From NCBI RefSeq assembly GCF_003151135.1, contig NZ_QEQK01000003.1:62001-126000 (forward strand): DNA of 64,000 bases. The letters are read 5' to 3'. This document shows, in pieces, positions 17,130-62,175 of the stretch. Numbering within the stretch: position 1 is the stretch's first letter; each line of letters starts with the position of its first letter. A program made the position numbers and the translations under genes. The notes beneath the pieces are model-generated. The model saw only the letters and a list, made by a program, of their open reading frames with translations. It searched no databases and had not been told where the DNA came from. The stretch comes from Abyssibacter profundi. Its GTDB lineage: Bacteria > Pseudomonadota > Gammaproteobacteria > Nevskiales > OUC007.

Positions 17130-17546
17130 GGGAAGCACGGATTGATTCGCGCCACCAAGACGGAGCCGGTTTTCCCGCGAGCCCAGGCGGAGTGAGTGCC
17201 GCTTGGTCATTCCAAGCTAGTGAACGACACGAATGCGTATGGAACGCATTCGGACGGCCGCAGGCCGGCCCGAAGGGCGAAGCGCATGGACGCGCTTCGC
17301 AACGCAGGATCGCGGGAGAACCGGCCCGTTCCGTCAGGATTGCGCCTGCAAACAGGCCAGACTGCGTTAGTCGGCGCATCCATGCGCCTCCCCCGGTGGG
17401 CCCGCCTTCGGCGGTTTCAATTCGCTCCCGGCGAATCGGTACTCGTCGTTCATTTGGAATGACCAAACTTCGCTCCTCGCTCCTCGCGCCTTGCCTGGCC
17501 TGTTTGCAGGCGGCAACTTGGCGGCGCGAATCAATCCGTGCTTCCC
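17130..17546 (+). mobile_element. Non-coding multi-hairpin element, copy B (417 bp)
   Basis: Terminal inverted repeats of 30 bp (17130-17159 and 17517-17546) differ at one position. The interior follows the same order of hairpins as copy D at 61709. It carries about 72 extra bases near 17369-17441, themselves made of short hairpins (GGCGCA-TCCA-TGCGCC, CCGCC-TTC-GGCGG, ATTCG-CTCCCGG-CGAAT). CTA precedes it and TGGTGTAG follows it, as in copy C. No convincing coding frame or transposase is present, so it would have to be moved in trans. I see no clear target-site duplication. Confidence 0.85.
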
Positions 17547-17611
17547 TGGTGTAGTCATCGGCATGTCACTGCGATGACGTCTGCCGGACACCGGTCCCGC
17601 TCGGGGGTGGC

Positions 17612-18235
17612 TCAGTTGGTGCTGGTGGCCAGCAAGTCGAAGATATTGAGGGCTTCCATCACCAGTTCGATGGACAGCGCAGCCAGCAGCATGCCCATGA
17701 CCCGCACCAGAATCGCCGACCCGTTGTGGCCGATGACCCGGATGATGTGACCAGCCGCCAGCATGAAGACAAACGTTGCTAGCAGCACCACCAGCATGAC
17801 ACCGGTGGTCGCCAGTTGGACCTGGATTGGATAGGTGTGGTTGTCGGTGAGGATGATCACCGCCATCAGTGCGCCGGGTGTCGCAATCGACGGCACAGCG
17901 AGCGGGAAGACCGCGATGTCGTGGCCGGGTTCGCCCTGCGCATTGCCCTGCGTAAGCGGGGTCCCGAACACCATCTTGAGGCCGAAGAGAAACAGGATGA
18001 TGCCACCGGCGACCTGGAGTGAAACCAAGCGAATCCCCATGGCAGACAACAAGAACTGGCCGATGATGACGGCCCCGATGAGAATCGCCGCGGCATAGGC
18101 AATCGCCTTGATGGCGGTGCGGCGGCGTTCGGCGTCGCTGAGGTGTCCCGTCAGGGAGGCAAAAATGGCGAGCGTGCCAACAGGGTCAATCGTTGCCCAG
18201 AGGATGAGGGCATCACGCAGCAGTTTGTCGGTCAT
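17612..18235 (-). CDS. MarC family integral membrane protein
   Basis: 207 residues with six hydrophobic segments. LWATIDPVGTLAIFASLTGH at the N-terminus, VAGGIILFLFGLKMVFG, and PSIATPGALMAVIILTDNH are the MarC/YhgN signatures. Despite the name, this family has no demonstrated role in multidrug resistance and its substrate is unknown. It is flanked by mobile element copy B downstream. Confidence 0.9.
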   Translation of the reverse strand: MTDKLLRDALILWATIDPVGTLAIFASLTGHLSDAERRRTAIKAIAYAAAILIGAVIIGQFLLSAMGIRLVSLQVAGGIILFLFGLKMVFGTPLTQGNAQGEPGHDIAVFPLAVPSIATPGALMAVIILTDNHTYPIQVQLATTGVMLVVLLATFVFMLAAGHIIRVIGHNGSAILVRVMGMLLAALSIELVMEALNIFDLLATSTN

Positions 18236-18423
18236 CCGTGTCCGTTGCGGGCGCGGGCATCACCGGTGCGGCGAGGCCTCCGGATCATCGGACCACGGCT
18301 GTCGTTAAAGATTCAATTCGCGCTCAACGTTGGACGGGCGCGTTGAGCGGCTGGGCAGCAAGCCACCCTCCCGGTCAGTCCGGTCGCGCAGAACCCTAAT
18401 GCCAAACAATCGGCAGCAGCGGA

Positions 18424-18708
18424 TTACAGTTCGACGTAATCCAGCGGATTGTCCCAGCGGGTTGGACGAGACACGTCGAGATACACGTCGCGCTCCATAT
18501 CCATGGCGCCGCTCCAGTCCTCAGGAGGGGCGGCCGGCGTGGCAGCCAGTTCGATCCAGCTGTCGAAATCAATCTCGGCCACCGTGCCGTCGAAGTACTG
18601 CACCTCGACCGTCTCGGCCCTCAAATCGATCGCGACAATCTCGAAGGGTGAGTTCTGACCCACCTGGTACCAGTCACCGACGCTGAGTTCATGTAACCAC
18701 ATCGCCAT
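18424..18708 (-). CDS. DUF6763-like small protein
   Basis: 94 residues: WLHELSVGDWYQVGQNSPF, then FEIVAIDLRAETVEVQYFDG and a tryptophan-rich WSGAMDMERD region. The pattern (compact beta domain reading an acidic, YFDG-containing strand) resembles small proteins labelled DUF6763 in gammaproteobacteria. Function unknown. The ATG at 18708 is chosen because AGGAG precedes it by 7 bases. The next 286 bases upstream, to the WYL gene, hold no gene. Confidence 0.6.
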   Translation of the reverse strand: MAMWLHELSVGDWYQVGQNSPFEIVAIDLRAETVEVQYFDGTVAEIDFDSWIELAATPAAPPEDWSGAMDMERDVYLDVSRPTRWDNPLDYVEL

Positions 18709-18932
18709 CTTGCTTCTCCTTGCCAAATCCTGGGTGATTCAGCTTCTAACGGATATAGGCAAGTGACAGTCCTGTGACAAGGCGTCTGCCATCCCACGGC
18801 AGGCAAGTGATTGATTCACGGAGAGGTTGCTGCGATGGGCGGATTGGCGAGTCGATTACCGGTGGCCTGAGCGGGCGTGAAATCCCGGTCAACCGCGTCA
18901 GCCTGCCGACGACGGATGACGTTTCCCCGACA

Positions 18933-18959
18933 CAAGCCAAACGCTTGCGGCTAGGCTTG
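18933..18959. promoter_or_regulatory. Inverted CAAGC/GCTTG half-sites upstream of the WYL gene, possible operator
   Basis: CAAGC at 18933-18937 faces GCTTG at 18943-18947, and a second GCTTG is at 18955-18959 (paired as CAAGCC and GGCTTG). The cluster ends 35 bases before the GTG of the WYL regulator. WYL-domain regulators near defence genes often repress their own promoter through such palindromes. This is a pattern in the sequence only; binding is untested. Confidence 0.3.
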
Positions 18960-18994
18960 GTGACGGGCAAGTCAACGATGAAGGAGCCTGCAGG

Positions 18995-19981
18995 GTGGAC
19001 AAGCTGGATCGCGTCTTCGTACTGCATCGCGAACTCAGCACGCGTCGCAGGCCGGTCACCAAGGCGGTGCTTGCCGAGCGCATGGGCGGCTGTTCGACAC
19101 GCACCGTGCACCGGACCGCACAGTGGATGATCGAGGCCCTCCACGCGCCGATTCGTTTTAGCCCCACGGGTTACTTCTATGACCGGCATCCCAACGAACC
19201 CGTATTCGAACTGCCTGGTCTCTGGTTCAACGAGGATGAGCTGGTTGCCCTGGTGGGCGTGCAGGCATTACTGCGGCAGGCCCAGCCGGGTTTGCTTGAC
19301 GATTACCTGGCGCCGATATCGAAGCGCATTGACGAGCTCTTGAGCCGGCGCGGTGTGGGGCTGCCGGATTGGGAGCGCCGCATTCGGATCGTCCAAATGG
19401 CTGGTCGCCCGGCCGGACAATGCTTTGGCGTGGTGGCTGATGCACTCGTCCGACACCAGCGAATCTTGATCCGGTATCGGGCACGCAGCGACGGAGCCCT
19501 ATCCACTCGAACCGTGTCTCCGCAGCGGCTGACCCACTATAGAGAGAACTGGTATCTGGACGCCTGGTGTCATGCCAAGGAGGAACTACGCACGTTCTCC
19601 GTCGATCGCATCGAGGCGGCGCAGCTGAGCGAAGAACCCGTGCTCGATATTCCGCAGGAGCAACTGGAAGACGTGCTCGCCACCAGCTTCGGCATCTTCT
19701 CGGGTGCCCCGACCCGTGAAGCCAGCCTGCTGTTCACAGCCCACCGTGCCCAGTGGATCGGCGACGAGCAATGGCACCCGCGGCAGCAGGGCGAGTCTCT
19801 GGACGATGGTCGCTTCCGCCTGCGGTTTCCCTACCATCGCAGCGAGGAACTCGTGCTGGACATCTGCCGTTATGGGCCGGATGTTCTGGTTGAGGCGCCG
19901 ACGGAGCTCAGGCGGGCGGTGGCGGAACGGTTGAAGGCGGCGGCTTCCTTGTATGAGGATGACGAGTCATGCCTCCCCTGA
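18995..19981 (+). CDS. WYL-domain transcriptional regulator (YafY type)
   Basis: 328 residues in three parts: an N-terminal winged helix (LDRVFVLHRELSTRRRPVTK, with TRTVHRTAQWMIEALHAPI), a central WYL domain (VVADALVRHQRILIRYRARS, TVSPQRLTHYRENWYLDAWC) and a C-terminal WCX extension (LRFPYHRSEELVLDICRYG). WYL proteins sense ligands, often nucleic acids or nucleotides, and frequently regulate defence loci. The GTG start has AAGGAG 8 bases before it. It points towards the nucleotidyltransferase and cas genes, and its end lies 16 bases from the nucleotidyltransferase start, so control of those genes is plausible. Confidence 0.88.
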   Translation: MDKLDRVFVLHRELSTRRRPVTKAVLAERMGGCSTRTVHRTAQWMIEALHAPIRFSPTGYFYDRHPNEPVFELPGLWFNEDELVALVGVQALLRQAQPGLLDDYLAPISKRIDELLSRRGVGLPDWERRIRIVQMAGRPAGQCFGVVADALVRHQRILIRYRARSDGALSTRTVSPQRLTHYRENWYLDAWCHAKEELRTFSVDRIEAAQLSEEPVLDIPQEQLEDVLATSFGIFSGAPTREASLLFTAHRAQWIGDEQWHPRQQGESLDDGRFRLRFPYHRSEELVLDICRYGPDVLVEAPTELRRAVAERLKAAASLYEDDESCLP

Positions 19982-19997
19982 GAACGAGCTAGCGGCG

Positions 19998-20498: not shown

Positions 20499-20680
20499 GC
20501 CGATCGGACGACGACATCGATTGGTCGCTGACCACCTTCGAAGGCGTTCGGATCGAACAGATGCGGCGCTGGGCCGAACTCCCGCTGGATCGCATCGTTG
20601 CTGCGCTGGAAGAGATGGAGCAATACGCAGCCCGTCGACCGGGAAACGTGCCCGTCAATACAAAGCCGGAGCCATCCTAG
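20495..20680 (+). CDS. Small partner protein of the nucleotidyltransferase
   Basis: 61 residues: DDDIDWSLTTFEGVRIEQMR then RWAELPLDRIVAALEEMEQY, a short acidic and helical protein with no domain I can name. The ATGA overlap with the nucleotidyltransferase shows translational coupling, the arrangement of toxin-antitoxin-like pairs; which partner would be the antitoxin cannot be told. A hairpin begins at the last base of its stop codon. Confidence 0.6.
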   Translation: MSRSDDDIDWSLTTFEGVRIEQMRRWAELPLDRIVAALEEMEQYAARRPGNVPVNTKPEPS

Positions 20681-20997: not shown

Positions 20998-21022
20998 ACG
21001 TCGGATACTTCTCGGTCATCTA

Positions 21023-21997
21023 ATGGACGAGTTCACGCCATCGTCTCTCAAGAGCATCTTGCACTCCAAGCGGGCGAACATTTACTACCTGGAACGTTGC
21101 CGGGTACTCGTAAATGGTGGTCGGGTGGAGTACGTCACCGAGGCAGGGCGTGAATCCCAATACTGGAATATCCCGATCGCGAATACGACGACGGTCTTGT
21201 TGGGGACTGGTACGTCGATCACTCAGGCCGCAATGCGTGAGCTGGCCAAGGCCGGTGTGCTGGTCGGTTTCTGTGGGGGCGGAGGCACGCCGTTATTTAG
21301 TGCCAACGAGGTTGATGTCGAAGTCGCCTGGTTATCGCCGCAGAGTGAATATCGCCCTACCGAATACCTCCAGGCATGGGTTGGGTTCTGGTTTGAGGAG
21401 GCAGGTAGGCTCGATGCCGCGCGGAGATTTCAGCGGGCGCGGCTGAAGCGAATCGCGGACCACTGGCTGAGTAGCCGCGCCTTACGTGACGCCGGGTTTG
21501 CGGTATCCGGCGAACAGCTTGACAGCCTCTTGCGCCGCGCGGACTCCGAAGTTTCATCCGCACCCGATACCCAGGCGCTGCTCACCGCCGAAGCCCGGCT
21601 GACCAAGGACCTGTTCAAGACCGCCGCACGGGCATCCGGCTACGGTGTATTCACTCGTGCCAAGCGAGGCGGCGGCGTGGACCCCGCCAATCGATTTCTG
21701 GATCACGGCAATTATCTCGCTTACGGGCTTGCAGCAACCGCGACCTGGGTGCTTGGTCTTCCACATGGTCTGGCTGTATTGCACGGCAAGACACGGCGTG
21801 GCGGATTGGTGTTCGACGTCGCGGACCTGATCAAGGATGCCGTCATCCTGCCGCAGGCGTTTGTGTCCGCGGTACGGGGCGATGAAGAGCAGGCGTTTCG
21901 CCAAGCCTGTATAGAATCGCTCACACAGACCGGGTCGCTGGATTTCATGATCGACACGCTCAAGCGAGTCGCGATGGAAGCGGGCGGTGCGACATGA
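21023..21997 (+). CDS. cas1: Cas1, type I-F integrase
   Basis: 324 residues with the subtype I-F pattern: LKSILHSKRANIYYLERCRV, NIPIANTTTVLLGTGTSITQ and GVLVGFCGGGGTPLFSANEV. The metal-binding triad is visible as E in TAEARLTK, H in DHGNYLAYG and D in DVADLIKDA. Cas1 with the Cas2 domain of the next protein integrates new spacers at the leader end of the array. The ATG at 21023 gives the conserved MDEFTPSSLKSI start; an in-frame extension to 20858 is not conserved. Its stop overlaps cas2-3 by four bases. Confidence 0.97.
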   Translation: MDEFTPSSLKSILHSKRANIYYLERCRVLVNGGRVEYVTEAGRESQYWNIPIANTTTVLLGTGTSITQAAMRELAKAGVLVGFCGGGGTPLFSANEVDVEVAWLSPQSEYRPTEYLQAWVGFWFEEAGRLDAARRFQRARLKRIADHWLSSRALRDAGFAVSGEQLDSLLRRADSEVSSAPDTQALLTAEARLTKDLFKTAARASGYGVFTRAKRGGGVDPANRFLDHGNYLAYGLAATATWVLGLPHGLAVLHGKTRRGGLVFDVADLIKDAVILPQAFVSAVRGDEEQAFRQACIESLTQTGSLDFMIDTLKRVAMEAGGAT

Positions 21998-24900
21998 ATG
22001 TGCTGCTGGTTTCGCAATGTGAAAAACGTGCGTTGACGGAAACTCGCCGCATCCTCGATCAGTTTGCCGAGCGCCGTGGTGATCGCACGTGGCAGACGCC
22101 GATCACACAGGCCGGACTGGATACGCTAAGGCGGTTGCTGCGTAAGACGGCACGCAAGAACACCGCGGTGGCTTGTCACTGGATACGGGGACGCGACCAC
22201 AGCGAACTGCTCTGGATTGTCGGCAATGCTGCGCGGTTCAATGCCGAGGGCGCGGTCCCGACCAACACGACTCAGCGTGATGTGCTCCGCCGTGCCCGCG
22301 AGAACGATTGGCACACGGCGCAGGACATTCGTCTGCTGGCTCAGCTCGCCGGGCTCCTGCACGATCTGGGAAAGGCCAGCATCGCCTTTCAACAGCGCCT
22401 TCGTGGCGAGTTGCAGGAACGCAACCTCTATCGCCACGAGTGGGTGTCGCTACGCTTGTTTCAGGCGTTCGTCGGTGATTGTGACGATGTTTCGTGGCTG
22501 CGCCGTTTGGCGCATGCGGGCAGCGACGATGAGGCGCTTTGGATCGCGGCGGATCGGTTTCAACGGGACGGGCTGGACGAAGGTGTTGTCCGACCATTCA
22601 ATCAACTGCCTCCGCTGGCTGCCGCCGTCGCCTGGCTGGTCGTCACTCATCATCGCCTCCCGACGATCCCGGAAGACAAGCGCTCGGATTTCAATGTGCG
22701 CTGGCTGGAACAGCCACTGTCGCTCGTGGATCACGAATGGAACGAACGCAAGCAGTCCGTCGATTCCGAGCATGTTCGTAAGTACTGGACTATGGCGGAC
22801 CAGTTGCCAGTGGTCCGGCCGAAATGGCGCGCCAAGGCTGCACGGCTCGCGCGGCAGCTGTTGAAGCTGTGCGATCAGCGATCAGCGCAGTGGCTGGAAA
22901 ACCCCTACGTAATGCACCTCGCTCGCCTCAGCCTGATGCTGGCGGATCACCACTATTCGTCTCTTCCGGAAGATGCGTCGCAGCGTGTCGCGGGAGACGG
23001 GGACTCATCCCTGTATGCCAATACGGGAGCGGGCGGGTCGCTTAAGCAAGCACTGGACGAGCACCTGCTGGGCGTGGCGCGAGACGCCGGCCAGATCGCC
23101 CATGCGCTGCCGGGTTTCGAGCAGGACTTGCCACGTCTGGCGCGACATCGCGGCCTGCGCAAGCGCAGTGGCGCGGGAAAGTTCGCCTGGCAGGACAAGG
23201 CGACCGATGCCGCGGTCTCATTGCGAGAGGTGTCGGCGGAACACGGCGCGTTCATCGTGAACATGGCGTCCACGGGTTGCGGCAAGACCCTGGCCAACCT
23301 GCGAATGCTCAACGCGTTGGCCGATCCCCACCAGGGTCTGCGGGCCACCTACGCGCTGGGACTGCGCACCTTGACCCTACAAACCGGGCGCAGCTATCGC
23401 GAGGATCTGCGTCTGGGTGAGGACGAGTTGGCAATCCTGGTCGGCGGCTCGGGCAGTCGGTCGCTGTTCGAGTACTACGAACGTCAGGCCGAGGATCAGG
23501 GATCGGCGTCCGCACAGGCGCTCATTGAGGAAGACAGTCACGTCCTGTTCGAGGGCAATACCGCCGATCATCCGCTGCTCTCACGTGCGATGCAGGACGC
23601 CAGTATCCGAAAGCTGATCTCGGCCCCGGTGCTCGTATGCACCGTCGATCACATCGCCCCCGTTACCGAATCGCTGCGCGCCGGCCGCCAGATCGCACCA
23701 ATGCTGCGGCTGATGAGCAGCGACCTGGTACTCGATGAGCTGGATGACTACGCCCTGGACGATCTTCCCGCACTGACGCGGCTGGTCCACTGGGCCGGCC
23801 TGTTGGGCACGCGGGTGGTGTTGTCCTCCGCCACGTTGCCGCCTGCGCTGGTGGAAGGGATGTTCATGGCGTATCGCGCCGGCCGCCTTCACTACCGAGA
23901 CAATCGCGGTGTCGACGGTGGTCAGACCAACCGAGAGATTCAGATCGCCTGCTTGTGGGTAGATGAATTCGGAGTGCAGCGCGAGCACTGCCCCGACGCC
24001 GAGAGGTTCACCGAACAGCACGCGACCTTCGTGCAGCGGCGGGTGAAAGCTCTGACGGCCGCCGAGCCCCTGCAGCGTGGCGCATTGTTGCCACTGAACA
24101 TCGCGATGAGAGCGCCCGACGAACAGCGGTACGCCGAGTTTGCCGAGCCGCTACGCGACGCCTGCGTTCGTCTGCATCAAGACCACGCCGAAGTGTGCCC
24201 ACATAGCGGCAAGCACGTCAGTTTCGGCATCGTGCGTATGGCTAACATCGAGCCCCTGGTCGGTGTTGCGCAGGCCTTGTTTGAACTTGGCGGGCTGGAC
24301 AATGTGCGCATACACCTGTGCGTGTACCACGCACGATTTCCGCAGGTGCAACGCTCGGCGATCGAGCATCAGCTTGACCAAGCTTTCAATCGGCGTCAGC
24401 CGGAGTCGGTCTTCGCGTTGCCGGAGATTCGCCAGGCGATCGATACGCACCTGGAACAACACCACGTGTTTGTTGCGCTGGCGTCACCGGTCTGTGAGGT
24501 CGGCCGGGATTGGGATGCGGACTGGGCTGTCGCCGAACCGTCGTCAATGCGGGCGTTGATCCAGTTGGCGGGACGAGTACAGCGACATCGGCGAAAGCGC
24601 GGTGACAAACCCAACCTGCTGATCTTCGACACCAACCTGCGTCATTTCAAAGGTGGGCGGGGGCCGGACGGACAACCAGGGCCGATTTTCCTCCGCCCCG
24701 GCTTCGAGCATTGGCGCGAACCGGTCGTGCATCCGTTTCGGTTGCTGTCGCATCACCTGAGCAAACTGATGGCGCCTGAGGAATACACCGCGATCAGTGC
24801 CTTGCCGCGCGTCTGTTCCAGGCCACTGGCCGAGCTGAAACCCAAACACCGGTTGGTCGACCTGGAACACGCGCGTATGCAGGACCGCATGCTGCCTCCA

Positions 24901-25353
24901 CAAAAGAGTGCAAGCGCGCAGACCGCGCGCGGAGGTTCAACACCAAAACCAAACGCCGCAACCGCCTGGCTGCACCCGCAGGCCGCGCTGACTGGAATGC
25001 TTCAACAGACGCAACGGTTTCGGGACGACGCCCAGCCAGGCGTCATGTTGGCGTTTCTCCCGGATGACGAGGAAGAGCGGCTGCTGCTTCACCGGGTGGA
25101 AGAAGAGGGTGGCCGTCGTGGTCGGACGCTTTACGTGGAAGTCGACCAAAGCCTCCGGCATGACGTGGACGTGGCGCTTGGTCCAGGCATCAGCAACTGG
25201 GGAGACCACGACTTGCTTGGATTGTTGGTTGCGCAGTCGGACCACCTCGACATGTCGCTGCATCGATGTGCAGAGAAGCTGGCGACGGTTCGTGCACCGA
25301 AAAGTGACCAGGGGTGGCGTTATCACCCCTGTCTAGGTTTGACCGCGTGCTAG
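21994..25353 (+). CDS. cas3: Cas2-Cas3 fusion nuclease-helicase, type I-F
   Basis: 1119 residues. Residues 1 to about 95 form the Cas2 domain (MNVLLVSQCEKRALTETRRI). An HD nuclease follows (LLHDLGKA, H123/D124; RHEWVS), then an SF2 helicase with Walker A STGCGKT near 425, DELDD near 580 and the SSATLPP motif. This fusion is diagnostic for subtype I-F. With Cas1 it acquires spacers; recruited to Csy-bound targets it unwinds and degrades DNA. All catalytic motifs that I can check look intact. Codon use and GC content are a little lower than in flanking housekeeping genes. Confidence 0.97.
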   Translation: MNVLLVSQCEKRALTETRRILDQFAERRGDRTWQTPITQAGLDTLRRLLRKTARKNTAVACHWIRGRDHSELLWIVGNAARFNAEGAVPTNTTQRDVLRRARENDWHTAQDIRLLAQLAGLLHDLGKASIAFQQRLRGELQERNLYRHEWVSLRLFQAFVGDCDDVSWLRRLAHAGSDDEALWIAADRFQRDGLDEGVVRPFNQLPPLAAAVAWLVVTHHRLPTIPEDKRSDFNVRWLEQPLSLVDHEWNERKQSVDSEHVRKYWTMADQLPVVRPKWRAKAARLARQLLKLCDQRSAQWLENPYVMHLARLSLMLADHHYSSLPEDASQRVAGDGDSSLYANTGAGGSLKQALDEHLLGVARDAGQIAHALPGFEQDLPRLARHRGLRKRSGAGKFAWQDKATDAAVSLREVSAEHGAFIVNMASTGCGKTLANLRMLNALADPHQGLRATYALGLRTLTLQTGRSYREDLRLGEDELAILVGGSGSRSLFEYYERQAEDQGSASAQALIEEDSHVLFEGNTADHPLLSRAMQDASIRKLISAPVLVCTVDHIAPVTESLRAGRQIAPMLRLMSSDLVLDELDDYALDDLPALTRLVHWAGLLGTRVVLSSATLPPALVEGMFMAYRAGRLHYRDNRGVDGGQTNREIQIACLWVDEFGVQREHCPDAERFTEQHATFVQRRVKALTAAEPLQRGALLPLNIAMRAPDEQRYAEFAEPLRDACVRLHQDHAEVCPHSGKHVSFGIVRMANIEPLVGVAQALFELGGLDNVRIHLCVYHARFPQVQRSAIEHQLDQAFNRRQPESVFALPEIRQAIDTHLEQHHVFVALASPVCEVGRDWDADWAVAEPSSMRALIQLAGRVQRHRRKRGDKPNLLIFDTNLRHFKGGRGPDGQPGPIFLRPGFEHWREPVVHPFRLLSHHLSKLMAPEEYTAISALPRVCSRPLAELKPKHRLVDLEHARMQDRMLPPQKSASAQTARGGSTPKPNAATAWLHPQAALTGMLQQTQRFRDDAQPGVMLAFLPDDEEERLLLHRVEEEGGRRGRTLYVEVDQSLRHDVDVALGPGISNWGDHDLLGLLVAQSDHLDMSLHRCAEKLATVRAPKSDQGWRYHPCLGLTAC

Positions 25354-25468
25354 ATCCCAGAGGCGTGAACGCGATTTTGGTCGCAGAGCCCATCTTTAGA
25401 GACAGCAAGCGAATTCACGAACTGGTATCGCTCAAGATCGAATTTGATTGAGAAAGGCGGAGGCTGGA

Positions 25469-26794
25469 ATGCGAGAAGAAAATGATCGAGTGCGGGTCTT
25501 CAGGGAGGCCATCACGACGTTCATTCATGAGCGTCGTGACGCCAAGCTGAAAGGCGACGACGACGCCGACAAGGCGGCGAAATATGAGTACGCCACTTGG
25601 CTGGCGGATGCCGCCCGCCGCGTCAGCCAGATTCAGGCGGTTACCCATGTGCTCAAGGCGACGCATCCCGATGCACGTGGCAGCAGTTTGCATGCTGCTC
25701 CTCAGTCGCTACCTTCCCATTCCGAGATTGGCTCTCACACCCTCGCGGCCGATTTCGCCGAGGACATCGTGGGCAACGCGGCCGCTCTGGATGTTTTCAA
25801 ATTCCTGAAGATGGAGGTCGATGGGCGTCGGCTGTTCGACTGGGTGCTGGAGAAAGACGTCGATTTGCAGCGAGCGCTGAGTCCGGACGCCGAAACGGCT
25901 GCCGAGTGGATGGAGGCATTCGGTGGGCTGCTGCGGACTGCAGTGCAACCGAAGTCTCATGCACTGGCCAAGCAGGTTTACTGGTGTGTCGGCGATGCCC
26001 CCGCCGATGACGGTCACTACCAGTTGTTGCAGCCGCTGTTCTCCAGCAGCCTGATGCACGCCATCCATGCCGATATCAACGACGCGCGCTTCGGTGAGCA
26101 GAACAAGGTCGCGCGTAAGGCGCATCGCGAGAAAACAGCTTCTGACGGGCCGTACCGTGATTATCGCGGTGTGGTTGCACGCAAGCTGGGCGGCACCAAG
26201 CCACAGAACATCTCCCAACTGAACAGCGAACGCGGCGGTGTGAACTATCTGTTGGCGTCCGTTCCACCACGCTGGCACAAGGAAACAAGCCCGAGACTAC
26301 TGAACACCGATTCTGTATTGGATCGCATTGGGCAGCTCGGCAGTGTGCGCCACCTGATTCGAGTTCTCACAGATTTTCTCCTGAAGGACCCTCCGAATAA
26401 TGAAGCCACGCGGAACAGGCGGGAGGCCATCGAGCAGGCGTTGAGTCAGGAACTGCCGGTGTTCGCTGCATCCATCCGGGCGGGGTTGGCACCCGGCTGG
26501 ACACGTGACCCTGCCTGCCGGCTCCCGCGCTGTGAGCAGCTATGGCTGGATTCAGACAGGGTGGAACTTCCACTTCGTGAAGACCATGCCGAGATCGACC
26601 AGGCATTCATCGACGACTATCACCAGGGCGATTGGCGTGACGAGGTGGCTGGTCGTTTCGCCAACTGGATCAATGCGCGTCTGCGTGATGCCGGACTGTC
26701 CGGGGTTGGGGATGCCGAATACCATCATTGGGCGAGGCAGGCAGTCATTGAGGCGCAATGGCCTGTGCCCATGCAGGCGAGGGCATCGGCATGA
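25469..26794 (+). CDS. csy1: Csy1 (Cas8f), large subunit of the type I-F surveillance complex
   Basis: 441 residues. The conserved KLGGTKPQNISQLNSERGGV block near residue 235 followed by NYLLASVPPRW is the hallmark of Csy1. With Csy2 it forms the tail that holds the 5' handle of the crRNA and recognises the PAM. The ATG at 25469 has GGAGG 6 bases upstream. The 115-base gap after cas2-3 is AT-richer than its surroundings and may hold an internal promoter for the csy genes. Its stop overlaps csy2 (ATGA). Confidence 0.95.
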   Translation: MREENDRVRVFREAITTFIHERRDAKLKGDDDADKAAKYEYATWLADAARRVSQIQAVTHVLKATHPDARGSSLHAAPQSLPSHSEIGSHTLAADFAEDIVGNAAALDVFKFLKMEVDGRRLFDWVLEKDVDLQRALSPDAETAAEWMEAFGGLLRTAVQPKSHALAKQVYWCVGDAPADDGHYQLLQPLFSSSLMHAIHADINDARFGEQNKVARKAHREKTASDGPYRDYRGVVARKLGGTKPQNISQLNSERGGVNYLLASVPPRWHKETSPRLLNTDSVLDRIGQLGSVRHLIRVLTDFLLKDPPNNEATRNRREAIEQALSQELPVFAASIRAGLAPGWTRDPACRLPRCEQLWLDSDRVELPLREDHAEIDQAFIDDYHQGDWRDEVAGRFANWINARLRDAGLSGVGDAEYHHWARQAVIEAQWPVPMQARASA

Positions 26795-27795
26795 GCGCTT
26801 GCCCATCCTTCGATTACTTGATGGTGCTACCACACCTGAGAGTGCAGAACGCCAACGCCGTATCCAGCCCGCTGACACACGGCTTTCCGTCCATGACGGC
26901 TTTTCTGGGCCTGATGTGGGCACTGGAACGCCGGTGCCGGGCTGCGGGCCTGGACCTGACATTTCGCGCGGTCGGCGTGGTGTGTCACGACCATCAGGAA
27001 CAGGTGAGTGACGACTGGTTCGTCAAATCGTTTCGCCTGACGCGCAACCCTATCGACAAACATGGAAAGACCGCCGCGATTGTCGAGGAAGGTCGTATTC
27101 ATCTGGAGTTGAGCCTGGTCTTCGCAGTTGAGAGCGAACGATGGCTGCGTGATCCGGATGCGCGGCAAGCGGATACCGGGACAGTGGCCGAACTGGTGAG
27201 CCAGATGCGTGTGGCCGGCGGCACGATCATGCCGCCGGAAAACCCAACCTGGCATCGCTATCAGCCGTATTCCGAGCCGATGCACGGCGAAAAGCGCTGG
27301 GAGTCTTTCCGCAAGCTGCGGATGCGCTGGTTACCCGGCTTCACGCTGGTGTCGCGAGACGAGTTGATCGACACGCGATTGGCTGAGTTGCACGAGGACG
27401 ACGCCGAAGCCACCAGACTGGATGCGTGGCTATCACTGTGCCGCATCAACTGGCGCTACGAGACACCGGAAAAGGACACCGCGCAAGCGCGCCGTGATGC
27501 GTGGAAGCATGATCGAGACGGCTTGGGCTGGATCGTGCCGATTCCCGTTGGCTATGGCGCGCTGGGAGATGTGTATCCCGCTGGGGCGGTGGCGAATGCA
27601 CGTGATGCAAGCACGCCGTTTCGCTTCGTCGAAAGTCTCTATTCGGTGGGGCAGTGGATCAGCCCGCACCGTCTGCATGATCCACAGCAGATGCTGTGGT
27701 ACGCCGACAGCCAGCCGGACAACGGCCTGTATCGCTGCCGCAACGATTTTCTACCCACGCCTGAATTCGACCTCTTCGAGGCGTCGTTCGACTAA
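26791..27795 (+). CDS. csy2: Csy2 (Cas5f), type I-F surveillance complex subunit
   Basis: 334 residues. YLMVLPHLRVQNANAVSSPL and THGFPSMTAFLGLMWALERR at the N-terminus are the typical Csy2 opening; WIVPIPVGYGALGDVYPAG and the GQWISPHRL segment match its C-terminal half. It pairs with Csy1 at the crRNA 5' handle. The ATG at 26791 sits inside the csy1 stop; a start at 26758 would only add a non-conserved segment from inside csy1. Confidence 0.95.
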   Translation: MSACPSFDYLMVLPHLRVQNANAVSSPLTHGFPSMTAFLGLMWALERRCRAAGLDLTFRAVGVVCHDHQEQVSDDWFVKSFRLTRNPIDKHGKTAAIVEEGRIHLELSLVFAVESERWLRDPDARQADTGTVAELVSQMRVAGGTIMPPENPTWHRYQPYSEPMHGEKRWESFRKLRMRWLPGFTLVSRDELIDTRLAELHEDDAEATRLDAWLSLCRINWRYETPEKDTAQARRDAWKHDRDGLGWIVPIPVGYGALGDVYPAGAVANARDASTPFRFVESLYSVGQWISPHRLHDPQQMLWYADSQPDNGLYRCRNDFLPTPEFDLFEASFD

Positions 27796-27819
27796 TCACA
27801 TTGATTCGAGGAGTACCGC

Positions 27820-28860
27820 ATGACCACACAAAATCTGAAAACCGCGTCCGTTTTGGCGTTTGAACGCAAGCTTGATCCGTCCGACGCCTTGTTGTTCGCC
27901 GGTGACTGGGCCAAGCGTGGACAGCCCGCCAATTGGCAGCCCGTCAAGATTCGCGAAAAGTCGGTCCGAGGAACGATTTCCAATCGACTCAAGGCCAAAG
28001 ACCAGGATCCGGCCAAGCTGGATGCGGCGATTGAAAGTCCGAATCTGCAAACGGTTGATGTGGCCGCCTTACCGTCGGACTGCGACACGCTGAAAGTGCA
28101 ATTCACGCTGCGAGTTCTGGGTGGCACGGGCCAGCCGTCGGCCTGCAACAACGCCGGCTATCGCGCAAAGCTAGTTGAGACCGTCGCCGGCTATGTCCAG
28201 GACCATGGGTTTGTCGAGCTCGCTGAGCGTTACGCTGCCAATCTCGCAAACGGCCGCTTCCTGTGGCGCAACCGTGTCGGCGCCGAGCAGGTTGAAGTGC
28301 ATGTCGCCCACCTCCAGCAAGGCAGCGCCGAGAAGCAATGGGTGTTCGACGCACTTGAGCACGAGTTGCGACAACTGAAAGCTCCCCAGGCGGAAGCCGG
28401 ACAAGTTTCCGAGCTGGCAGCGCTGATCGAAGCTGGTCTTGCCAGCAAGGCCCATGTGCTTTTGCAGGTGACCGCGTACGTCCGAATGGGTGCCGGGCAG
28501 GAAGTATTCCCATCCCAAGAGCTGATTCTCGACCGTGGTCGTGGAGACAAGAGCAAAACCTTGTACGCAGTGGGTGAGGGTGACAAGGCCGTCGCCGCGA
28601 TTCATTCGCAAAAGATCGGCAACGCGATTCGAACGATTGATACTTGGTATCCAGATGCCGCTGAACTAGGTGCGATTGCGGTTGAGCCGTATGGGTCGGT
28701 TACCACGCAGGGCAAGGCCTATCGCCAGCCCAAGCAGAAGCAGGATTTCTACTCACTGTTGGATCGCTGGCTGCTCAAAGATGAAGCGCCAGATACGAAC
28801 AATCAGCACTTTGTAGTCGCCGTGTTAGTTCGCGGTGGCGTCTTTGGCGATGCAGGCTAA
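27820..28860 (+). CDS. csy3: Csy3 (Cas7f), backbone subunit of the type I-F complex
   Basis: 346 residues, starting [20 protein letters not shown] as Csy3 proteins do, with [28 protein letters not shown] and the late [20 protein letters not shown] conserved. Six copies of Csy3 form the crRNA-binding helical backbone. GAGGAG lies before the ATG at 27820. Confidence 0.96.
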
Positions 28861-28865
28861 TCCCG

Positions 28866-29435
28866 ATGGAGCAATATGCTGAGTTTAGGCTGCTGCCTGA
28901 TCCAGAATTTTCGGTTCACCACTTGATGAATGCCTTGTTCGCCAAGTTGCACCGTGCGCTCGTTGATCTGAACAACCCGCAGATCGGTGTGACATTTCCT
29001 GAGGCGGGCGCTAAGGCGAAGGGAATGGGCAGCATACTCAGGCTGCACGGCGCAGGCTCGGTGCTGCATCCGTTCCTACAGGAAAGTTGGTTTAGGAGTG
29101 TTCGAGATCATGTCGAAAGTTCGGGTGTGCAGCGTGTTCCGGATGATTGCAGTTACATGCAGGTACGCCGTGTGCAGCCTTTGGGGGGAAGCGACCTTCG
29201 CCGCCTTCGTCGTCGACTGATCACTCGGACCGGCTGCTCCGTGGAGGAAGCAGAGCAACGGATTCCGAATGTAGCAGCCGAGCGTCTTGCGCTGCCATTT
29301 CTCTCGTTAAGGAGTACAAGCACAGGACAGGTATACCGACTATTTATCCAACAGATGCCGGCTCCGGAAAGAGTGGATGGCGAATTCAACACCTTTGGCA
29401 TTAGCAAGACGGCAACTCTACCGCTGTTTGACTGA
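28866..29435 (+). CDS. csy4: Csy4 (Cas6f), crRNA-processing endoribonuclease
   Basis: 189 residues. The catalytic histidine is H29 in LFAKLHRALV, the same position as in the Pseudomonas aeruginosa enzyme, and the LRSTSTGQ motif carries the partner serine. The arginine-rich helix LRRLRRRLITR would enter the major groove of the repeat hairpin. It cuts after the G at the 3' foot of each stem, leaving the 8-nt handle CUCAGAAA and staying bound to the 3' stem-loop. It begins five bases after csy3. Confidence 0.96.
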   Translation: MEQYAEFRLLPDPEFSVHHLMNALFAKLHRALVDLNNPQIGVTFPEAGAKAKGMGSILRLHGAGSVLHPFLQESWFRSVRDHVESSGVQRVPDDCSYMQVRRVQPLGGSDLRRLRRRLITRTGCSVEEAEQRIPNVAAERLALPFLSLRSTSTGQVYRLFIQQMPAPERVDGEFNTFGISKTATLPLFD

Positions 29436-29468
29436 CCCTTTTTGTCGGGTCGATTTTTATTTCAATAA

Positions 29469-29481
29469 AATCAAAGGTTTA
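29469..29481 (+). promoter_or_regulatory. IHF-type site in the CRISPR leader
   Basis: AATCAAAGGTTTA fits the consensus WATCARNNNNTTR at every position. IHF bending of the leader is known to guide Cas1-Cas2 integration in type I-E and I-F systems. The site lies 82 bases before the first repeat. Confidence 0.65.
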
Positions 29482-29486
29482 AATGT

Positions 29487-29512
29487 GGCGTTCGGGATTG
29501 GTCCCGAGCGCC
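29487..29512 (+). terminator. Probable terminator of the cas operon, inside the leader
   Basis: GGCGTTCGGGA pairs with TCCCGAGCGCC across a TTGG loop, giving an 11-bp stem with one G-U pair, followed by TATTTTCTTTATT. This is the best intrinsic terminator in the window. It separates the csy transcript from the array, so the array needs its own promoter in the last 50 bases of the leader. Confidence 0.7.
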
Positions 29513-29562
29513 TATTTTCTTTATTGCTATTAGAATCATTGATCTATGTGAATTCTAGGCTA

Positions 29563-32231
29563 GTTCACTGCCGCGTAGGCAGCTCAGAAAAACGCCATCC
29601 GCCGCAGCGCCCAGGGCGAAGCGTTCACTGCCGCGTAGGCAGCTCAGAAATGACTGATCGTCAGGTACGGCTTGACCATCGCGTTCACTGCCGCGTAGGC
29701 AGCTCAGAAATTCTGGTCCTTTCACTCCTGGCTGCTTTTCTCGTTCACTGCCGCGTAGGCAGCTCAGAAATCGGAAGAAAACTCTACAACGAGGCATTGA
29801 AAGTTCACTGCCGCGTAGGCAGCTCAGAAAACGCTGCAGGCGGCATTCACCCACGGCTGGCACGTTCACTGCCGCGTAGGCAGCTCAGAAAATGGGGCCA
29901 TGCCGGCGCTGCGGGCCGTGTCTGTTCACTGCCGCGTAGGCAGCTCAGAAAATGATCAGCGCCGGCAAGTACAAGACCGAGGGGTTCACTGCCGCGTAGG
30001 CAGCTCAGAAAAAAGAGCAAGCAGGCCAACGAAGAAGCACCAGGTTCACTGCCGCGTAGGCAGCTCAGAAAACGCGTTCATCGCTGCCATCAGCGACAGT
30101 GCTGTTCACTGCCGCGTAGGCAGCTCAGAAAAGAACACGCTGAACGAGGTGATCCAGCCTGGCGTTCACTGCCGCGTAGGCAGCTCAGAAAACCTCGCCG
30201 CGCTGGTTGAGCCACACGACGGAGTTCACTGCCGCGTAGGCAGCTCAGAAATCTCGGTGAAGCGATTTCCAGTAGTCGATGAAGTTCACTGCCGCGTAGG
30301 CAGCTCAGAAAGTTGATGTAGATGGTGGCGTTGCCGTCGTCGTGTTCACTGCCGCGTAGGCAGCTCAGAAAATCGACGCAACGACGCAGCGGCGGCCCTG
30401 CTGGTTCACTGCCGCGTAGGCAGCTCAGAAAATCGACTCGAACGACAGCGACTGCGGGATACGGTTCACTGCCGCGTAGGCAGCTCAGAAAAGATCGCGG
30501 CTGCGCTCGACAATGAGAATCAGGTTCACTGCCGCGTAGGCAGCTCAGAAAAGACCGACAAGAAGAGCACCGATTGGTGCGACGTTCACTGCCGCGTAGG
30601 CAGCTCAGAAAAGCGTCCACCCACTAATCTTCTCCACCACTTGGTTCACTGCCGCGTAGGCAGCTCAGAAATGCTCGCCTGCAGCACGTAGCTCGCTGGC
30701 CTCGTTCACTGCCGCGTAGGCAGGTCAGAAAGTGACGTGTGGCGATGTACGTGCGGCTGTAGCGTTCACTGCCGCGTAGGCAGCTCAGAAAAGGCGCTGC
30801 ACCGGACCCGTCAACCCGCCGCTGTTCACTGCCGCGTAGGCAGCTCAGAAAACCGCAGTTGCCGATCAGGCCGTCCCACTTGTGTTCACTGCCGCGTAGG
30901 CAGCTCAGAAAACAAAGGCGGCCAATGCGCCAACGGCCAGAATGTTCACTGCCGCGTAGGCAGCTCAGAAAATTTGCATTTGGCGTCGGCTTTCGGACCC
31001 TGGGTTCACTGCCGCGTAGGCAGCTCAGAAACTGCCGCGCTGCGGCCTCACGCACGGTACCGCGTTCACTGCCGCGTAGGCAGCTCAGAAAAGTGCCGAG
31101 CCCGTGAGGTGGCCGGGGATGATGTTCACTGCCGCGTAGGCAGCTCAGAAACACCACCGGCAGGGTGTCGGTCACCAACTGCCGTTCACTGCCGCGTAGG
31201 CAGCTCAGAAATACGACATCATCGACAGCGGGGGTGGGGTGCCGTTCACTGCCGCGTAGGCAGCTCAGAAAAGGAATCGTAGTTGCACACGCCGGCAATG
31301 TTGGTTCACTGCCGCGTAGGCAGCTCAGAAAAGCCACACGAACACCTCGCTGATCTTGCGCAAGTTCACTGCCGCGTAGGCAGCTCAGAAATCCCGATCG
31401 TGCGGCATCTCCAGGCGGCACCAGTTCACTGCCGCGTAGGCAGCTCAGAAATATCAGGTGGGCTGGCCGAATCGTGAATCCGTGTTCACTGCCGCGTAGG
31501 CAGCTCAGAAAATGCGGATGCCGGAGCCGTCCTCGTCCATCCAGTTCACTGCCGCGTAGGCAGCTCAGAAATTGCGCCGGATGATCCAGGAGGCACGTAA
31601 CGTGTTCACTGCCGCGTAGGCAGCTCAGAAATGAGCATGTGCGGCGTCCAGCCCTTCGTATCGGTTCACTGCCGCGTAGGCAGCTCAGAAAAGCCACGGA
31701 GCCGCCACCCGACCAGTGTGTCAGTTCACTGCCGCGTAGGCAGCTCAGAAATCGTCCTGATTCGCTCCCGCCCGCTGGGGACCGTTCACTGCCGCGTAGG
31801 CAGCTCAGAAAACTTCCTCGCAGCCGATGCCAGCCTCCAGTTGGTTCACTGCCGCGTAGGCAGCTCAGAAATGTGCCGCCGTCTCCGCCGTCGCCGCCAT
31901 CTCGTTCACTGCCGCGTAGGCAGCTCAGAAAAAGGAATGCGAGCAGGGCCATCAGGCCTGTGAGTTCACTGCCGCGTAGGCAGCTCAGAAAGGATGAGGA
32001 CTTCACCGCTATCCAGCGTTACCGTTCACTGCCGCGTAGGCAGCTCAGAAAATAGCTCGCGTGGAAAGGTGGCGGAACTCTTCGTTCACTGCCGCGTAGG
32101 CAGCTCAGAAAGACCCGCACAAGGGCCGGCAGATGACGGAAAAGTTCACTGCCGCGTAGGCAGCTCAGAAATATATCGCCGCGACGACAAGGGCGCGGTC
32201 GTCGTTCACTGCCGCGTAGGCAGCTCAGAAA
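29563..32231 (+). CRISPR. Type I-F CRISPR array, 45 repeats and 44 spacers
   Basis: The 28-bp repeat begins GTTCACTG, holds the stem CTGCC/GGCAG around GCGTA, and ends CTCAGAAA, the I-F class. I count repeats starting at 29563, 29623, 29683, 29743, 29803, 29864 and then every 60 bases to 32204. Spacers are 32 nt except spacer 5 (29831-29863), which is 33 nt. All repeats are identical except number 20 (30704-30731), where the base after the stem is G instead of C. The leader-distal repeat is intact. No two spacers look alike, and I saw none matching elsewhere in the window by eye. Confidence 0.98.
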
Positions 32232-48393: not shown

Positions 48394-48417
48394 GGGACGC
48401 CCTGATTGATTCCCGCC
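48394..48417 (+). repeat. Solo end of the hairpin element (remnant F)
   Basis: These 24 bases match the terminal arm of copy A at 21 of 24 positions and are preceded by CTA as in full copies. No second arm follows, so it is a relic. It lies just upstream of the membrane protein gene at 48443. Confidence 0.6.
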
Positions 48418-49234: not shown

Positions 49235-49572
49235 GGGAAACACTAATCTACTCGCGCCGCCAAGTTGCTGCCTGCAAACAGGCCAGGCAAGGCGCGAGGA
49301 ATGAAGTTTGGTCATTCCAAATGAACAACGAGCAACGCAGTCTGGCCTGTTTGCAGGCGCAATCCAGACGGAACGGGCCGGTTTTCCCGCGATCCTGCGT
49401 TGCGAAGCGCGTCCATGCGCTTCGCCCTTCGGGCCGGCCTACGGCCGTCCGAATGCGTTCCGTACGCATTCGTGTCGTTCGCTGACTTGGAATGACCAAG
49501 CGGCACTCACTCCGCCTGGGCTCGCGGGAAAACCGGCTCCGTCTTGGTGGTGCGAATAGATCAGTGTTTCCC
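49235..49572 (-). mobile_element. Non-coding multi-hairpin element, copy C (338 bp)
   Basis: This is copy D (61709-62046) in the opposite orientation, with the same length and order of internal hairpins. Its ends begin GGGAAACACT, where most copies have GGGAAGCACT, and the change is mirrored in the opposite arm (AGTGTTTCCC). Flanks are CTA on the left and TGGTGTAG on the right, the right flank being shared with copy B. It fills the 403-base gap between DUF423 and the beta-barrel gene. Short frames inside are not coding. Confidence 0.85.
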
Positions 49573-52671: not shown

Positions 52672-52750
52672 GGAAGCATGGATTGATTCGCAGCGCCAAG
52701 TTGCTGCCTGAAAAGAGGCCAGACTGCGGGGCTCGTCGTTCATTCGGAAC
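52671..52750 (-). repeat. Degenerate, recombined remnant of the hairpin element (remnant E)
   Basis: The first 35 bases resemble the element end (AGGAAGCATGGATTGATTCG, then GCGCCAAGTTGCTGCCTG). The sequence then jumps to an internal part of the element (GGCCAGACTGCG, then CTCGTCGTTCATTCGGAA). The jump is at the 17-bp inverted motif that occurs twice inside full copies, suggesting recombination between them. Confidence 0.6.
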
Positions 52751-52762
52751 GAGGCCAGGGAT

Positions 52763-59282: not shown

Positions 59283-59419
59283 CCGGCTGCGGGTGTTTGT
59301 GCAGTGTCTTTGCGAGCCGGCCTTCCTCCGGCGTCTCGGCTAGACTGGCGCGCATGGGACTGACTGGAGGGCGATCTCGCACCTCGTCTGTCCATCTCAT
59401 TCCAACCTATCAGGACACC

Positions 59420-61525
59420 ATGCGACGACTTATTGTTCTTGTGGCTGCAGCCTTGACGGCCTGCGCCCAGCAACCGCTACCCATTATGAAAACCGATGCG
59501 AACCCGCTGTTGCAGCCGAGTCCGCTGCCTTACGAATATCCACCCTTCGACCGGATCCGGGCTGAGCACTTTTTGCCGGCTTTTGAGGTCGGGATGCAGG
59601 AGTCGTTGGCGGAGCTCGATGCGCTGGTGTCTCAGGATGCCGAACCCACCTTTGAAAACACCATTGTGGCAATGGAGCGGGGCGCGCAGACGCTGCAGCG
59701 GGTGGCGACGATCTTCTACGGGTTGGTAGGCACGCACGGAACTGACGAGCTGCAGGCAATCAACAAGACGATTTCGCCGAAGCTGGCGGCGCACCAGGAC
59801 AAGCTCTACCTCAATGCGGCCGCGTTTGCCCGTGTCGATGCCCTGTACCAGAAGCGCGCATCGCTGGGGCTGGATGCCGAATCGCTCCGCCTGTTGGAGC
59901 GCTACCACACCGACTTTGTCCGTGCGGGCGCCCAGTTGGACGAGCCGCAGCAGGCGCGGTTGCGCGAAATCAATGCCGAGCTGTCGGCCCTGACGACGCA
60001 GTTCCAGCAAAACCTGCTCAAGCATACGAATGAATTGGCGGTGGTCGTGACCGATCGCGAGGAACTGGCGGGGCTGTCCGATACCGAGATCGAGGCCGCG
60101 GCTGCGACGGCCAAGTCCCGCGGTGTCGAGGGCTACGTGCTGACGCTGCAGCTTCCGACATTGCAGCCCCAGCTGGCCGATCTGGACCATCGCCCGCTGC
60201 GTGAGCGCATTCATCGCGCCTCGGTTCAACGCGGTCTCACGGACGGGGCATTGGATAACCGGCCAGTGATTCTGCAAATCGTGTCGCTGCGAGCCGAACG
60301 GGCTCGGTTGCTGGGCTACGACACTCATGCGGATTACGTTCTGGCCAACGCCACGGCGGGCACAGCAGATGCTGTGAACACCCTGCTGGCCAAGCTGGCG
60401 CCGCCTGCGGTGGCAAATGCTCGCAAGGAGGCCGAGCGTCTGCGGCAGGCTGCGGGCGAGGCGGTGGATCTGAAGGTCTGGGATTGGCCCTACTACCGCG
60501 AGATCGTCCGTCAGGCGGACTATGACTTCGACCAGAATGCACTCAAGCCCTATTTCGAGATGGAGCGCGTGCTCACCGAGGGCGTGTTCTACATGGCCAA
60601 GGCGCTGTACGGCCTGCGTTTCGAGCGTCGAGATCATCTGCCGGTCTACCACCCGGACGTCACGGTCTACGAGGTCTTCGAAGAAGATGGAGACGCCTTG
60701 GGGCTGTTCATCTTTGATCCCTTTGCCCGCGAGACCAAGCGGGGCGGTGCCTGGATGAACAGCTATGTTCAGCAGTCGCGATTGCTGGGCAAGCGGCCGG
60801 TGGTCGCCAATCATCTGAACATCACCAAGCCGGCGGGTGATGAGCCCGTGCTGCTGACCCCGGGTGAAGTGAACACGATGTTTCACGAGTTCGGCCATGC
60901 CCTGCATGGCTTGTTCTCCAACGTGCACTATCCGTACTTCTACGGCACCTCAGTCCCGCGGGATTTTGTCGAGTACCCCTCACAGGTCCATGAGATGTGG
61001 GCATTCTGGCCGGAGGTGATGGCGCGCTACGCCCGTCATCATGAAACCGGCGAACCGTTGCCACAGGCGATGATTGATCGCTACAAGTCGACCGAGCAGT
61101 TCAATCAGGGTTACGCCACCACTGAATACCTCGCGGCCTCGCTGCTGGATCAGGCCTGGCATCAGCTGCCGGCCGATGCCAGCGTCGAAGACGTAGAGCG
61201 TTTCGAAGCTGAGGCGCTGGAGCAGGCGGGCATCGCATTGGAACTGGTGCCGCCGCGCTATCGCAGCACCTACTTTGCCCACGTCTTCGCCGGTGGATAC
61301 GCGGCCGGTTACTACTCCTACGTCTGGTCTGAAGTGCTGGATGCCGACACGGTGGCTTGGTTCAAGGCCACCGGCGGGCTCAGCCGTGAGAACGGCGATC
61401 GCATGCGGCAGGGCATTTTGTCGAAAGGCGGCACCATGGATGCCCAGGCCATGTATGAGGCCTTCCGCGGGCGTGCGGCCGAGATCGGCCCGCTGCTGGA
61501 GCGGCGCGGCCTAACCGCCAACTAG
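59420..61525 (+). CDS. dcp: Peptidyl-dipeptidase Dcp-type metallopeptidase (M3A), lipoprotein
   Basis: 701 residues. The short signal MRRLIVLVAAALTAC ends in a lipobox, so the enzyme is probably membrane-anchored in the periplasm. The zinc site is MFHEFGHALHGLF near residue 490, and RYRSTYFAHVFAGGYAAGYY is the conserved C-terminal block of M3A enzymes. It would cleave dipeptides from peptide C-termini. The longer frame upstream of 59420 is not conserved. Confidence 0.92.
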   Translation: MRRLIVLVAAALTACAQQPLPIMKTDANPLLQPSPLPYEYPPFDRIRAEHFLPAFEVGMQESLAELDALVSQDAEPTFENTIVAMERGAQTLQRVATIFYGLVGTHGTDELQAINKTISPKLAAHQDKLYLNAAAFARVDALYQKRASLGLDAESLRLLERYHTDFVRAGAQLDEPQQARLREINAELSALTTQFQQNLLKHTNELAVVVTDREELAGLSDTEIEAAAATAKSRGVEGYVLTLQLPTLQPQLADLDHRPLRERIHRASVQRGLTDGALDNRPVILQIVSLRAERARLLGYDTHADYVLANATAGTADAVNTLLAKLAPPAVANARKEAERLRQAAGEAVDLKVWDWPYYREIVRQADYDFDQNALKPYFEMERVLTEGVFYMAKALYGLRFERRDHLPVYHPDVTVYEVFEEDGDALGLFIFDPFARETKRGGAWMNSYVQQSRLLGKRPVVANHLNITKPAGDEPVLLTPGEVNTMFHEFGHALHGLFSNVHYPYFYGTSVPRDFVEYPSQVHEMWAFWPEVMARYARHHETGEPLPQAMIDRYKSTEQFNQGYATTEYLAASLLDQAWHQLPADASVEDVERFEAEALEQAGIALELVPPRYRSTYFAHVFAGGYAAGYYSYVWSEVLDADTVAWFKATGGLSRENGDRMRQGILSKGGTMDAQAMYEAFRGRAAEIGPLLERRGLTAN

Positions 61526-61538
61526 TGCCAGCGGCCCG

Positions 61539-62175
61539 TCAGCGCTTATCCGGGCGCTGACGGGCCGCCCACCGGATGTGTCGCTGCACCGTTTCGTCAG
61601 CGCAGATGGCCTCCAAGGTGGCGTATTCACGGCCCAGCGTGACCTCGTCGAACTGTCGATGCAGAAAGCGATGGCACAGTCGACAAAGCCAGATGCCTCG
61701 GTGGCTAAGGGAAGCACTGATTTACTCGCGCCGCCAAGACGGAGCCGGTTTTCGCGCGAGCCCAGGCGGAGTGAGTGCCGCTTGGTTATTCCAAGTCAGC
61801 GAACGACACGAATGCGTACGGAACGCATTCGGACGGCCGTAGGCCGGCCCGAAGGGCGAAGCGCATGGACGCGCTTCGCAACGCAGGATCGCGGGAAAAC
61901 CGGCCCGTTCCATCAGGATTGCGCCTGCAAACAGGCCAGACTGCGTTGCTCGTCGTTCATTTGGAATGACCAAACTTCGCTCCTCGCGCCTTGCCTGGCC
62001 TGTTTGCAGGCAGCAACTTGGCGGCGCGAGTAAATCAGTGCTTCCCTGGGGTCTCCCGATCGTAGCGGCGGGCAAAGTAAGCCCGCTTGTGAACCTTGCG
62101 CGGGATCAGGTGGTGAAACTGCAGTGGCGTTTCGCGGCCACATAGCTGGCAGTGTTGGACGGTGGCGCGGGTCAT
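61539..62175 (-). pseudogene. HNH-nuclease-like gene split by mobile element copy D
   Basis: Reading on the minus strand from the ATG at 62175: TRATVQHCQLCGRETPLQFH, then HLIPRKVHKRAYFARRYDRE. The frame is then broken by the element (62046-61709). Beyond it, in another frame, HRGIWLCRLCHRFLHRQFDE continues to the TGA at 61539. The two CxxC pairs and HH motif are those of small HNH endonuclease-like proteins, one half on each side. Removing the element plus two bases restores a single frame. Confidence 0.8.
61709..62046 (+). mobile_element. Non-coding multi-hairpin element, copy D (338 bp), inserted in an HNH gene
   Basis: Perfect 30-bp terminal inverted repeats (61709-61738 and 62017-62046). 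The interior is a chain of hairpins: CTTGG/CCAAG, GAATGCGT/ACGCATTC, GCGAAGCGC/GCGCTTCGC and a perfect 17-bp pair at 61923-61939 and 61995-62011. No coding frame of interest. It interrupts the HNH-like gene listed above. Left flank CTAA, right flank TGGGG; no clear target duplication. Confidence 0.9.

Follow-up and report, generated by a model that had tools for sequence, protein, structure and literature searches.

A dispersed non-coding element in the window

The window analysed here is a 64,000-nucleotide stretch of the Abyssibacter profundi contig NZ_QEQK01000003.1 (C3:62001-126000 of G000, a 3.74-Mb draft genome in 47 contigs). It carries three long copies, one short palindrome and two remnants of a repeated non-coding element, and one of the long copies lies within a gene for an HNH-domain protein (Table 1). 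We interpret the window elements as miniature inverted-repeat transposable elements (MITEs) that would be mobilised in trans by a transposase of the IS5 group and that have a conserved structured core, a reading to which we assign a probability of about 0.82. Every site listed in the original prediction, an earlier reading of this DNA, is real, and the element is present in both orientations as stated there; the borders were given one base too wide at either end, an adjoining base of the target having been included.

The core is ordered as a terminal stem, a first branch (module H), a mini-hairpin and a second branch (inverted H), and each H module consists of a stem, a loop with the strands CAAGGCG and CAACGCMG, a second stem and an apical hairpin. 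The internal chain of hairpins that had been described is indeed found, with the two strands of a 336-bp copy folding at -208.6 and -212 kcal/mol (z -12.7 and -14.2). Tandem G-A mismatches, which may be structured non-standard pairs, recur in the module stems, as in branch 2 of the window elements (CGAGGAG/CGACGAG). Open reading frames of 146 and 151 residues span copies (window 17114-17554 and 61578-62033); both look like chance frames, and a Pfam search with the 61578-62033 frame gave no match.

Table 1. Element copies, their parts and the interrupted gene, in window coordinates
Feature	Position	Strand	Composition, context or basis
Minimal element, 54 bp	328-381	.	two perfect 23-bp arms flanking 8 bp
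415-bp element	17131-17545	+	264-bp core, two 72-bp inserts (M1, M2) and 7 bp
M2 insert, 72 bp, hairpin-bearing, branch 2	17368-17439	+	alignment of copies
Lone decayed arm	48395-48415	+	directly 3' of CTAG
336-bp element	49236-49571	-	264-bp core and M1; flanks CTAG / CTGG
H module, branch 2 of the 49236-49571 copy	49279-49349	+	other-lineage covariance model, E 8.5e-6
Remnant, single arm with adjacent branch-2 sequence	52672-52757	+	
336-bp element, perfect arms	61710-62045	+	within HNH-domain gene
M1 insert, 72 bp, hairpin-bearing, branch 1	61807-61878	+	immediately 5' of CAACGCAG loop strand; alignment of copies
H module, branch 2 of the 61710-62045 copy	61932-62002	-	other-lineage covariance model, E 2.5e-6
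HNH-domain gene, 3' part	61542-61709	-	split by 61710-62045 element
HNH-domain gene, 5' part	62046-62154	-	split by 61710-62045 element

The arms are not confined to these sites but occur throughout the genome, in congeners and in other families. With up to three mismatches allowed, the arm is found 99 times in the 3.74-Mb genome, compared with once for the reversed pattern, and a BLAST search with one copy as query gave 101 matches. Most arms are paired, bounding elements of 43-415 bp that are 91-98% identical to one another and that fall into length classes of 43, 54, 95, 264, 336 and 408-415 bp, plus a few others. The 264-, 336- and 408-bp classes are set apart by the 72-bp hairpin-bearing inserts M1 (branch 1) and M2 (branch 2), and in the alignment of copies M2 is found in the 408/415-bp class and is missing from the 264- and 336-bp classes. 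M1 and M2 occupy matching positions, directly beside the CAACGC/GCGTT loop strand of their respective branches. Several contigs of the assembly terminate inside copies.

Target duplication and a candidate mobilising enzyme

Copies are bordered by matching 4-bp YTAR targets (CTAG...CTAG, TTAA...TTAA, CTAA...CTAA) and in one case by CTTG...CTTG; the duplicates are exact in seven copies and partly decayed in most others. In the window, the 415-bp element is flanked by CTAG and CTGG, and the minimal element adjoins a CTAG whose right duplicate has decayed to CGAG and whose left one holds the TAG stop codon of the upstream gene. The HNH locus provides both a filled and an empty site: the gene, on the minus strand, is split only in this genome, and the joined protein aligns unbroken in 26 relatives (71% identity in G001, 71% in G002, 59% in G003, and 23 more genomes). 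From the reading frame, the ancestral target was probably TTAG, with the upstream duplicate since decayed. The family thus has the properties of MITEs, namely terminal inverted repeats (in 35 paired copies), target-site duplication, no transposase gene within a length well covered by the ~600-bp limit, and mobility. Because target duplications, a disrupted gene and high identity between copies are found together, the proposal of a mobile, non-coding and recently active element is upheld, as is its probable need for a transposase supplied in trans.

The closest candidate for a mobilising enzyme is found in an Ectothiorhodospiraceae metagenome bin, where L189:1347-2548 is a 1,202-bp insertion sequence (IS) of the IS5 group flanked by CTAG and CTAA and encoding an intact transposase of 327 residues. 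Its ends are GGAAACGCTGATCTA and, on the right, GGAGACACTGATTTATTCGCCTGC, the latter agreeing with the MITE arm consensus at 19 of the first 20 positions, and a 181-bp MITE that carries an H module (E 2.9e-13) lies beside it. A second IS, L130, from the same order, has TTAA followed by GGAAACACTGATCAAGT at both ends, and both ends match the arm over its first 13 positions. The published sites of E. coli IS5 include CTAA and CTAG, with a 4-bp duplication (PMC11677980). The window elements thus have in common with the IS5 group of the IS5 family (E. coli IS5-like elements, L189, L130) the GGAA... termini, the 4-bp YTAR duplication and terminal inverted repeats that match closely in L189 and L130; they differ in having no transposase gene and an interior unrelated to the IS. 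The end and target of L189, together with L130 and the published IS5 sites, identify at the level of sequence likeness the type of enzyme, IS5-group, and not the resident enzyme, if any. By analogy, an IS5-group DDE transposase supplied in trans would recognise the 5'-GGAARCACTGATYNATTC ends and insert the element into YTAR, duplicating 4 bp. An IS sharing the arms, which the original prediction had named as the route to the mobilising enzyme, therefore exists in a related bacterium, and none was found in the element's own assembly: searches directed at IS5-type enzymes with PF01609 (DDE_Tnp_1), PF05598 (DUF772) and L119-type and L130-type queries gave no match in the 47-contig draft.

The IS L119 of the congener G001 was considered as a partner and rejected, the target class being the same but the terminal inverted repeat, GGAGACTCTGCACAA, different. 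A plasmid search with the arm gave only chance matches, in Acinetobacter and Allorhizobium.

Conservation of the folded core

Among 14 copies from the genus, 17 pairs have changed on both sides, compared with 8.7 after shuffling (0/500). The arms alone led to elements in Methylonatrum kenyense, Ectothiorhodospiraceae bins, G003 and G433; these measure 262-270 bp and have the same fold with strongly diverged interiors, and the loop strands CAAGG... and CAACGC... hold many of the columns that are invariant outside the arms. The interior is a conserved two-branched structure and not a random IS remnant. An Rfam search with the element gave no match at the gathering score or at E up to 1, and no described family with this core was found in the literature, mainly open-access papers.

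The H module also occurs in about a dozen other lineages of the class, behind different ends. Of 185 genomes of the class, 17 contain the pattern CAAGGCG-N28-50-CAACGCMG in 10-97 copies, compared with 0-4 for the reversed pattern; in a few of the 17 (G195, for example) a good many of the matches resemble coding sequence. Elements with matched ends, either ~253-289 bp long with two inverted modules or 149-208 bp long with one, hold most of the matches in G172, G145, G187, G219, G232, G169 and others. The end types around H are GGAACCTCTGATYAATTATG, TAGTGTASTGYKTCA, (TA)GTACTCYNTCAA, CCCGGCAACAATATATAT and GGGCCTGTTAACACTAA, and some were found again in different genomes and are therefore likely to be true ends. 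In a set of 24 modules from nine genomes outside the window genus, 89.4% of cells are paired (63.8% after shuffling), 21 of 23 pairs have changed on both sides, and covariation is 0.712 compared with 0.224 +/- 0.020 in shuffled alignments (0/500) and at most 0.17 in slid controls. Moreover, when the CAAGGCG strand of these modules is read, G-T/U pairs account for 17 distinct states and A-C pairs for four, as would be expected if this strand folds by itself; the terminal stem has no such wobble bias (14 versus 11).

A covariance model built from these 24 modules only finds two sites in the window, both within the predicted elements (Table 1), the next match, with filters off, having an E-value of 0.83. 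It also matches the modules of Methylonatrum, G003, G433 and the MITE beside L189 (E down to 8.6e-14). No match was obtained in IS L130 or in the MITEs of Thiobacillus MAG_64 (L100, L107, L114, L116), which have the terminal inverted repeat and YTAR duplication of the window elements but are 107-127 bp long, with an unrelated simple palindromic core (GTCATTCCGGCGAAAGCCGGAATCCAG) and no H module.

H, its stems rewritten and still pairing, is thus shared by elements of many gammaproteobacterial families, the class being taken broadly enough to contain Neisseria. From this conservation we infer that H is selected as a folded single strand, RNA from read-through transcription being slightly favoured over single-stranded DNA in replication or transposition. 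The idea of purely DNA-level pairing, first suggested by the lack of wobble bias within the genus, was revised in view of the between-lineage set. The structure appears to be filtered during propagation, with resident copies then drifting, and the sequences suggest that a structured non-autonomous core has been combined with different transposon ends over time. Other bacterial MITEs, such as MITEAba12 and QMITE, are likewise trans-mobilised and have terminal inverted repeats and target duplications; they usually share ends with one IS, whereas here a conserved fold stands behind several end types. MITEAba12 folds weakly, at about -24 to -27 kcal/mol (PMC6382973).

Several points weigh against the reading of the window elements as IS5-mobilised MITEs with a conserved core. 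Neither G000 nor G002 nor G003 yielded a transposase with these ends, a multicopy IS could be missing from the 47-contig draft, and mobilisation of the window elements is argued by analogy. Some of the ends outside the window lack a clear duplication. The other-lineage modules were chosen by their loop motif, so that loop conservation is partly circular there, a circularity that does not apply to Methylonatrum, G003 and G433. Finally, resident copies of the window genus have no bias of G-U over A-C (11 versus 11; 4 versus 6), and the strand argument therefore depends on the 24 modules taken from other lineages.

Correia elements and alternative explanations

The covariance model also recognises the Correia elements (CREE) of Neisseria. 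A Correia sequence that is 98% identical over its full length to N. gonorrhoeae records is matched at 24.5 bits (E 6e-6 on 755 bases). Within a 50-kb stretch of that chromosome the model has only two matches, with E-values of 0.015 and 0.17, both in Correia elements and both beginning 16 bp after the start of the Correia end repeat. The outer stem can be aligned to the model, as can both loop strands; the inner stem cannot. Like the window elements, Correia elements are small non-coding MITEs with matched inverted ends and an H module in the right register, but they reach only ~157 bp, have one module rather than two and an inner stem that is diverged or absent, and their terminal inverted repeat is TATAGYGGATTAA rather than GGAARCACTGATYNATTC. 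Their target is TA, compared with the 4-bp YTAR of the window elements. They have been described as IS630-type (PMC2817692), and symmetric variants can occur among CREE arms (PMC2649163). The original prediction did not recognise the window elements as a Correia-type family. Their ends and target do differ from those of Correia elements, and they are not members of that group, but the view that the two are unrelated is not supported: the internal module is shared, and Correia elements are probably one-module relatives with other ends. A search of phages with a partial Correia sequence gave no match. The records NZ_CP119140.1 and NZ_CP119142.1, labelled plasmids, are 2.17-Mb N. gonorrhoeae sequences and evidently chromosomes.

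The elements could instead be ordinary IS5-derived MITEs with functionless hairpins, template switching during replication being the only process that makes the inverted repeats and keeps them matched. In 35 copies, an arm differs from its own partner at 3.5 of 24 positions and from the arms of other copies at 5.3 (0/20,000 permutations); positions 5, 12, 13 and 14 are free to differ from copy to copy, the two arms of one copy mostly agreeing there, and clustered multi-base changes appear in both arms. Stems are known to arise and persist through template switching between inverted repeats (PMC8794818), and this process or conversion between arms probably keeps the arms of a copy matched. The unbiased wobble pairs of resident copies also suit this explanation. 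As the sole cause, we consider it somewhat unlikely, since it fails to predict invariant unpaired loop strands, a near-constant element length, two inverted modules with the same topology in many families, and the between-lineage bias of G-U over A-C. An identification as REP/REPIN-type elements moved by a RAYT (Y1 HUH) transposase would account for palindromic, dispersed, extragenic sequences in high copy, but is very improbable given the 4-bp YTAR duplications, the perfect long terminal inverted repeats and the absence of short GTAG-tagged REP organisation. It was dropped along with integron attC sites, neither of which makes 4-bp duplications.

The placement of copies raises the question of host benefit. 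As judged with a simple codon-usage gene caller, whose calls are crude, convergent genes flank 15 of the 32 copies that could be classified (against a background of 7 of 60 neighbour pairs within the window), and for 16 of 35 the stop codon of the neighbouring gene coincides exactly with the TAR of the target. Such copies might be retained as bidirectional terminators or stabilisers of mRNA 3' ends; the RNA fold is extremely stable, and Neisseria CREE are bound and cut by RNase III (PMC2649163). We regard this as unlikely. Because YTAR includes the stop codons TAA and TAG, surviving copies would be expected in intergenic gaps and on gene stops, often between convergent genes, and 60 of 117 YTAR sites in the window lie in gene interiors, yet almost no copies are found there. 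Most simply, insertions inside genes are lost and the target looks like a stop codon, which predicts the same placement. Moreover, the three closest relatives have the HNH gene without the element, and resident copies drift without wobble bias.

MITEs are usually explained family by family as deletion remnants of one IS. A covarying core behind several end types, if true, would imply selection on the interior and exchangeable ends. We tentatively suggest, at less than even odds, that the folded core and not the ends is the heritable selected unit, an ancient non-coding H element that spreads through Proteobacteria, acquires new matched ends and parasitises unrelated transposases (IS5 group, IS630-type and others), with Correia elements as its Neisseria branch. 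Template switching would then copy new terminal repeats onto both arms, and propagation would require H as a single-stranded hairpin. The relationship ties Correia elements, for which the mobiliser and the structural purpose have long been in question, to elements of many more tractable bacteria, and a covariance model is now at hand for finding more of them.

Two further observations were made. A stretch of ~2.6 kb is 99% identical between L068 (G000:C11) and L106 (JAAFAL010000179.1, G003), which are assigned to different genera, and includes a 95-bp element with the same arms and another core; either recent transfer or bin contamination would explain this near-identity, and metagenome bins are at times wrongly labelled. 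The window also contains a Type I-F CRISPR-Cas locus (21994-32231) with a Cas2-3 fusion (21994-25353) and an array of ~45 CRISPR-DR4 repeats (29563-32231).

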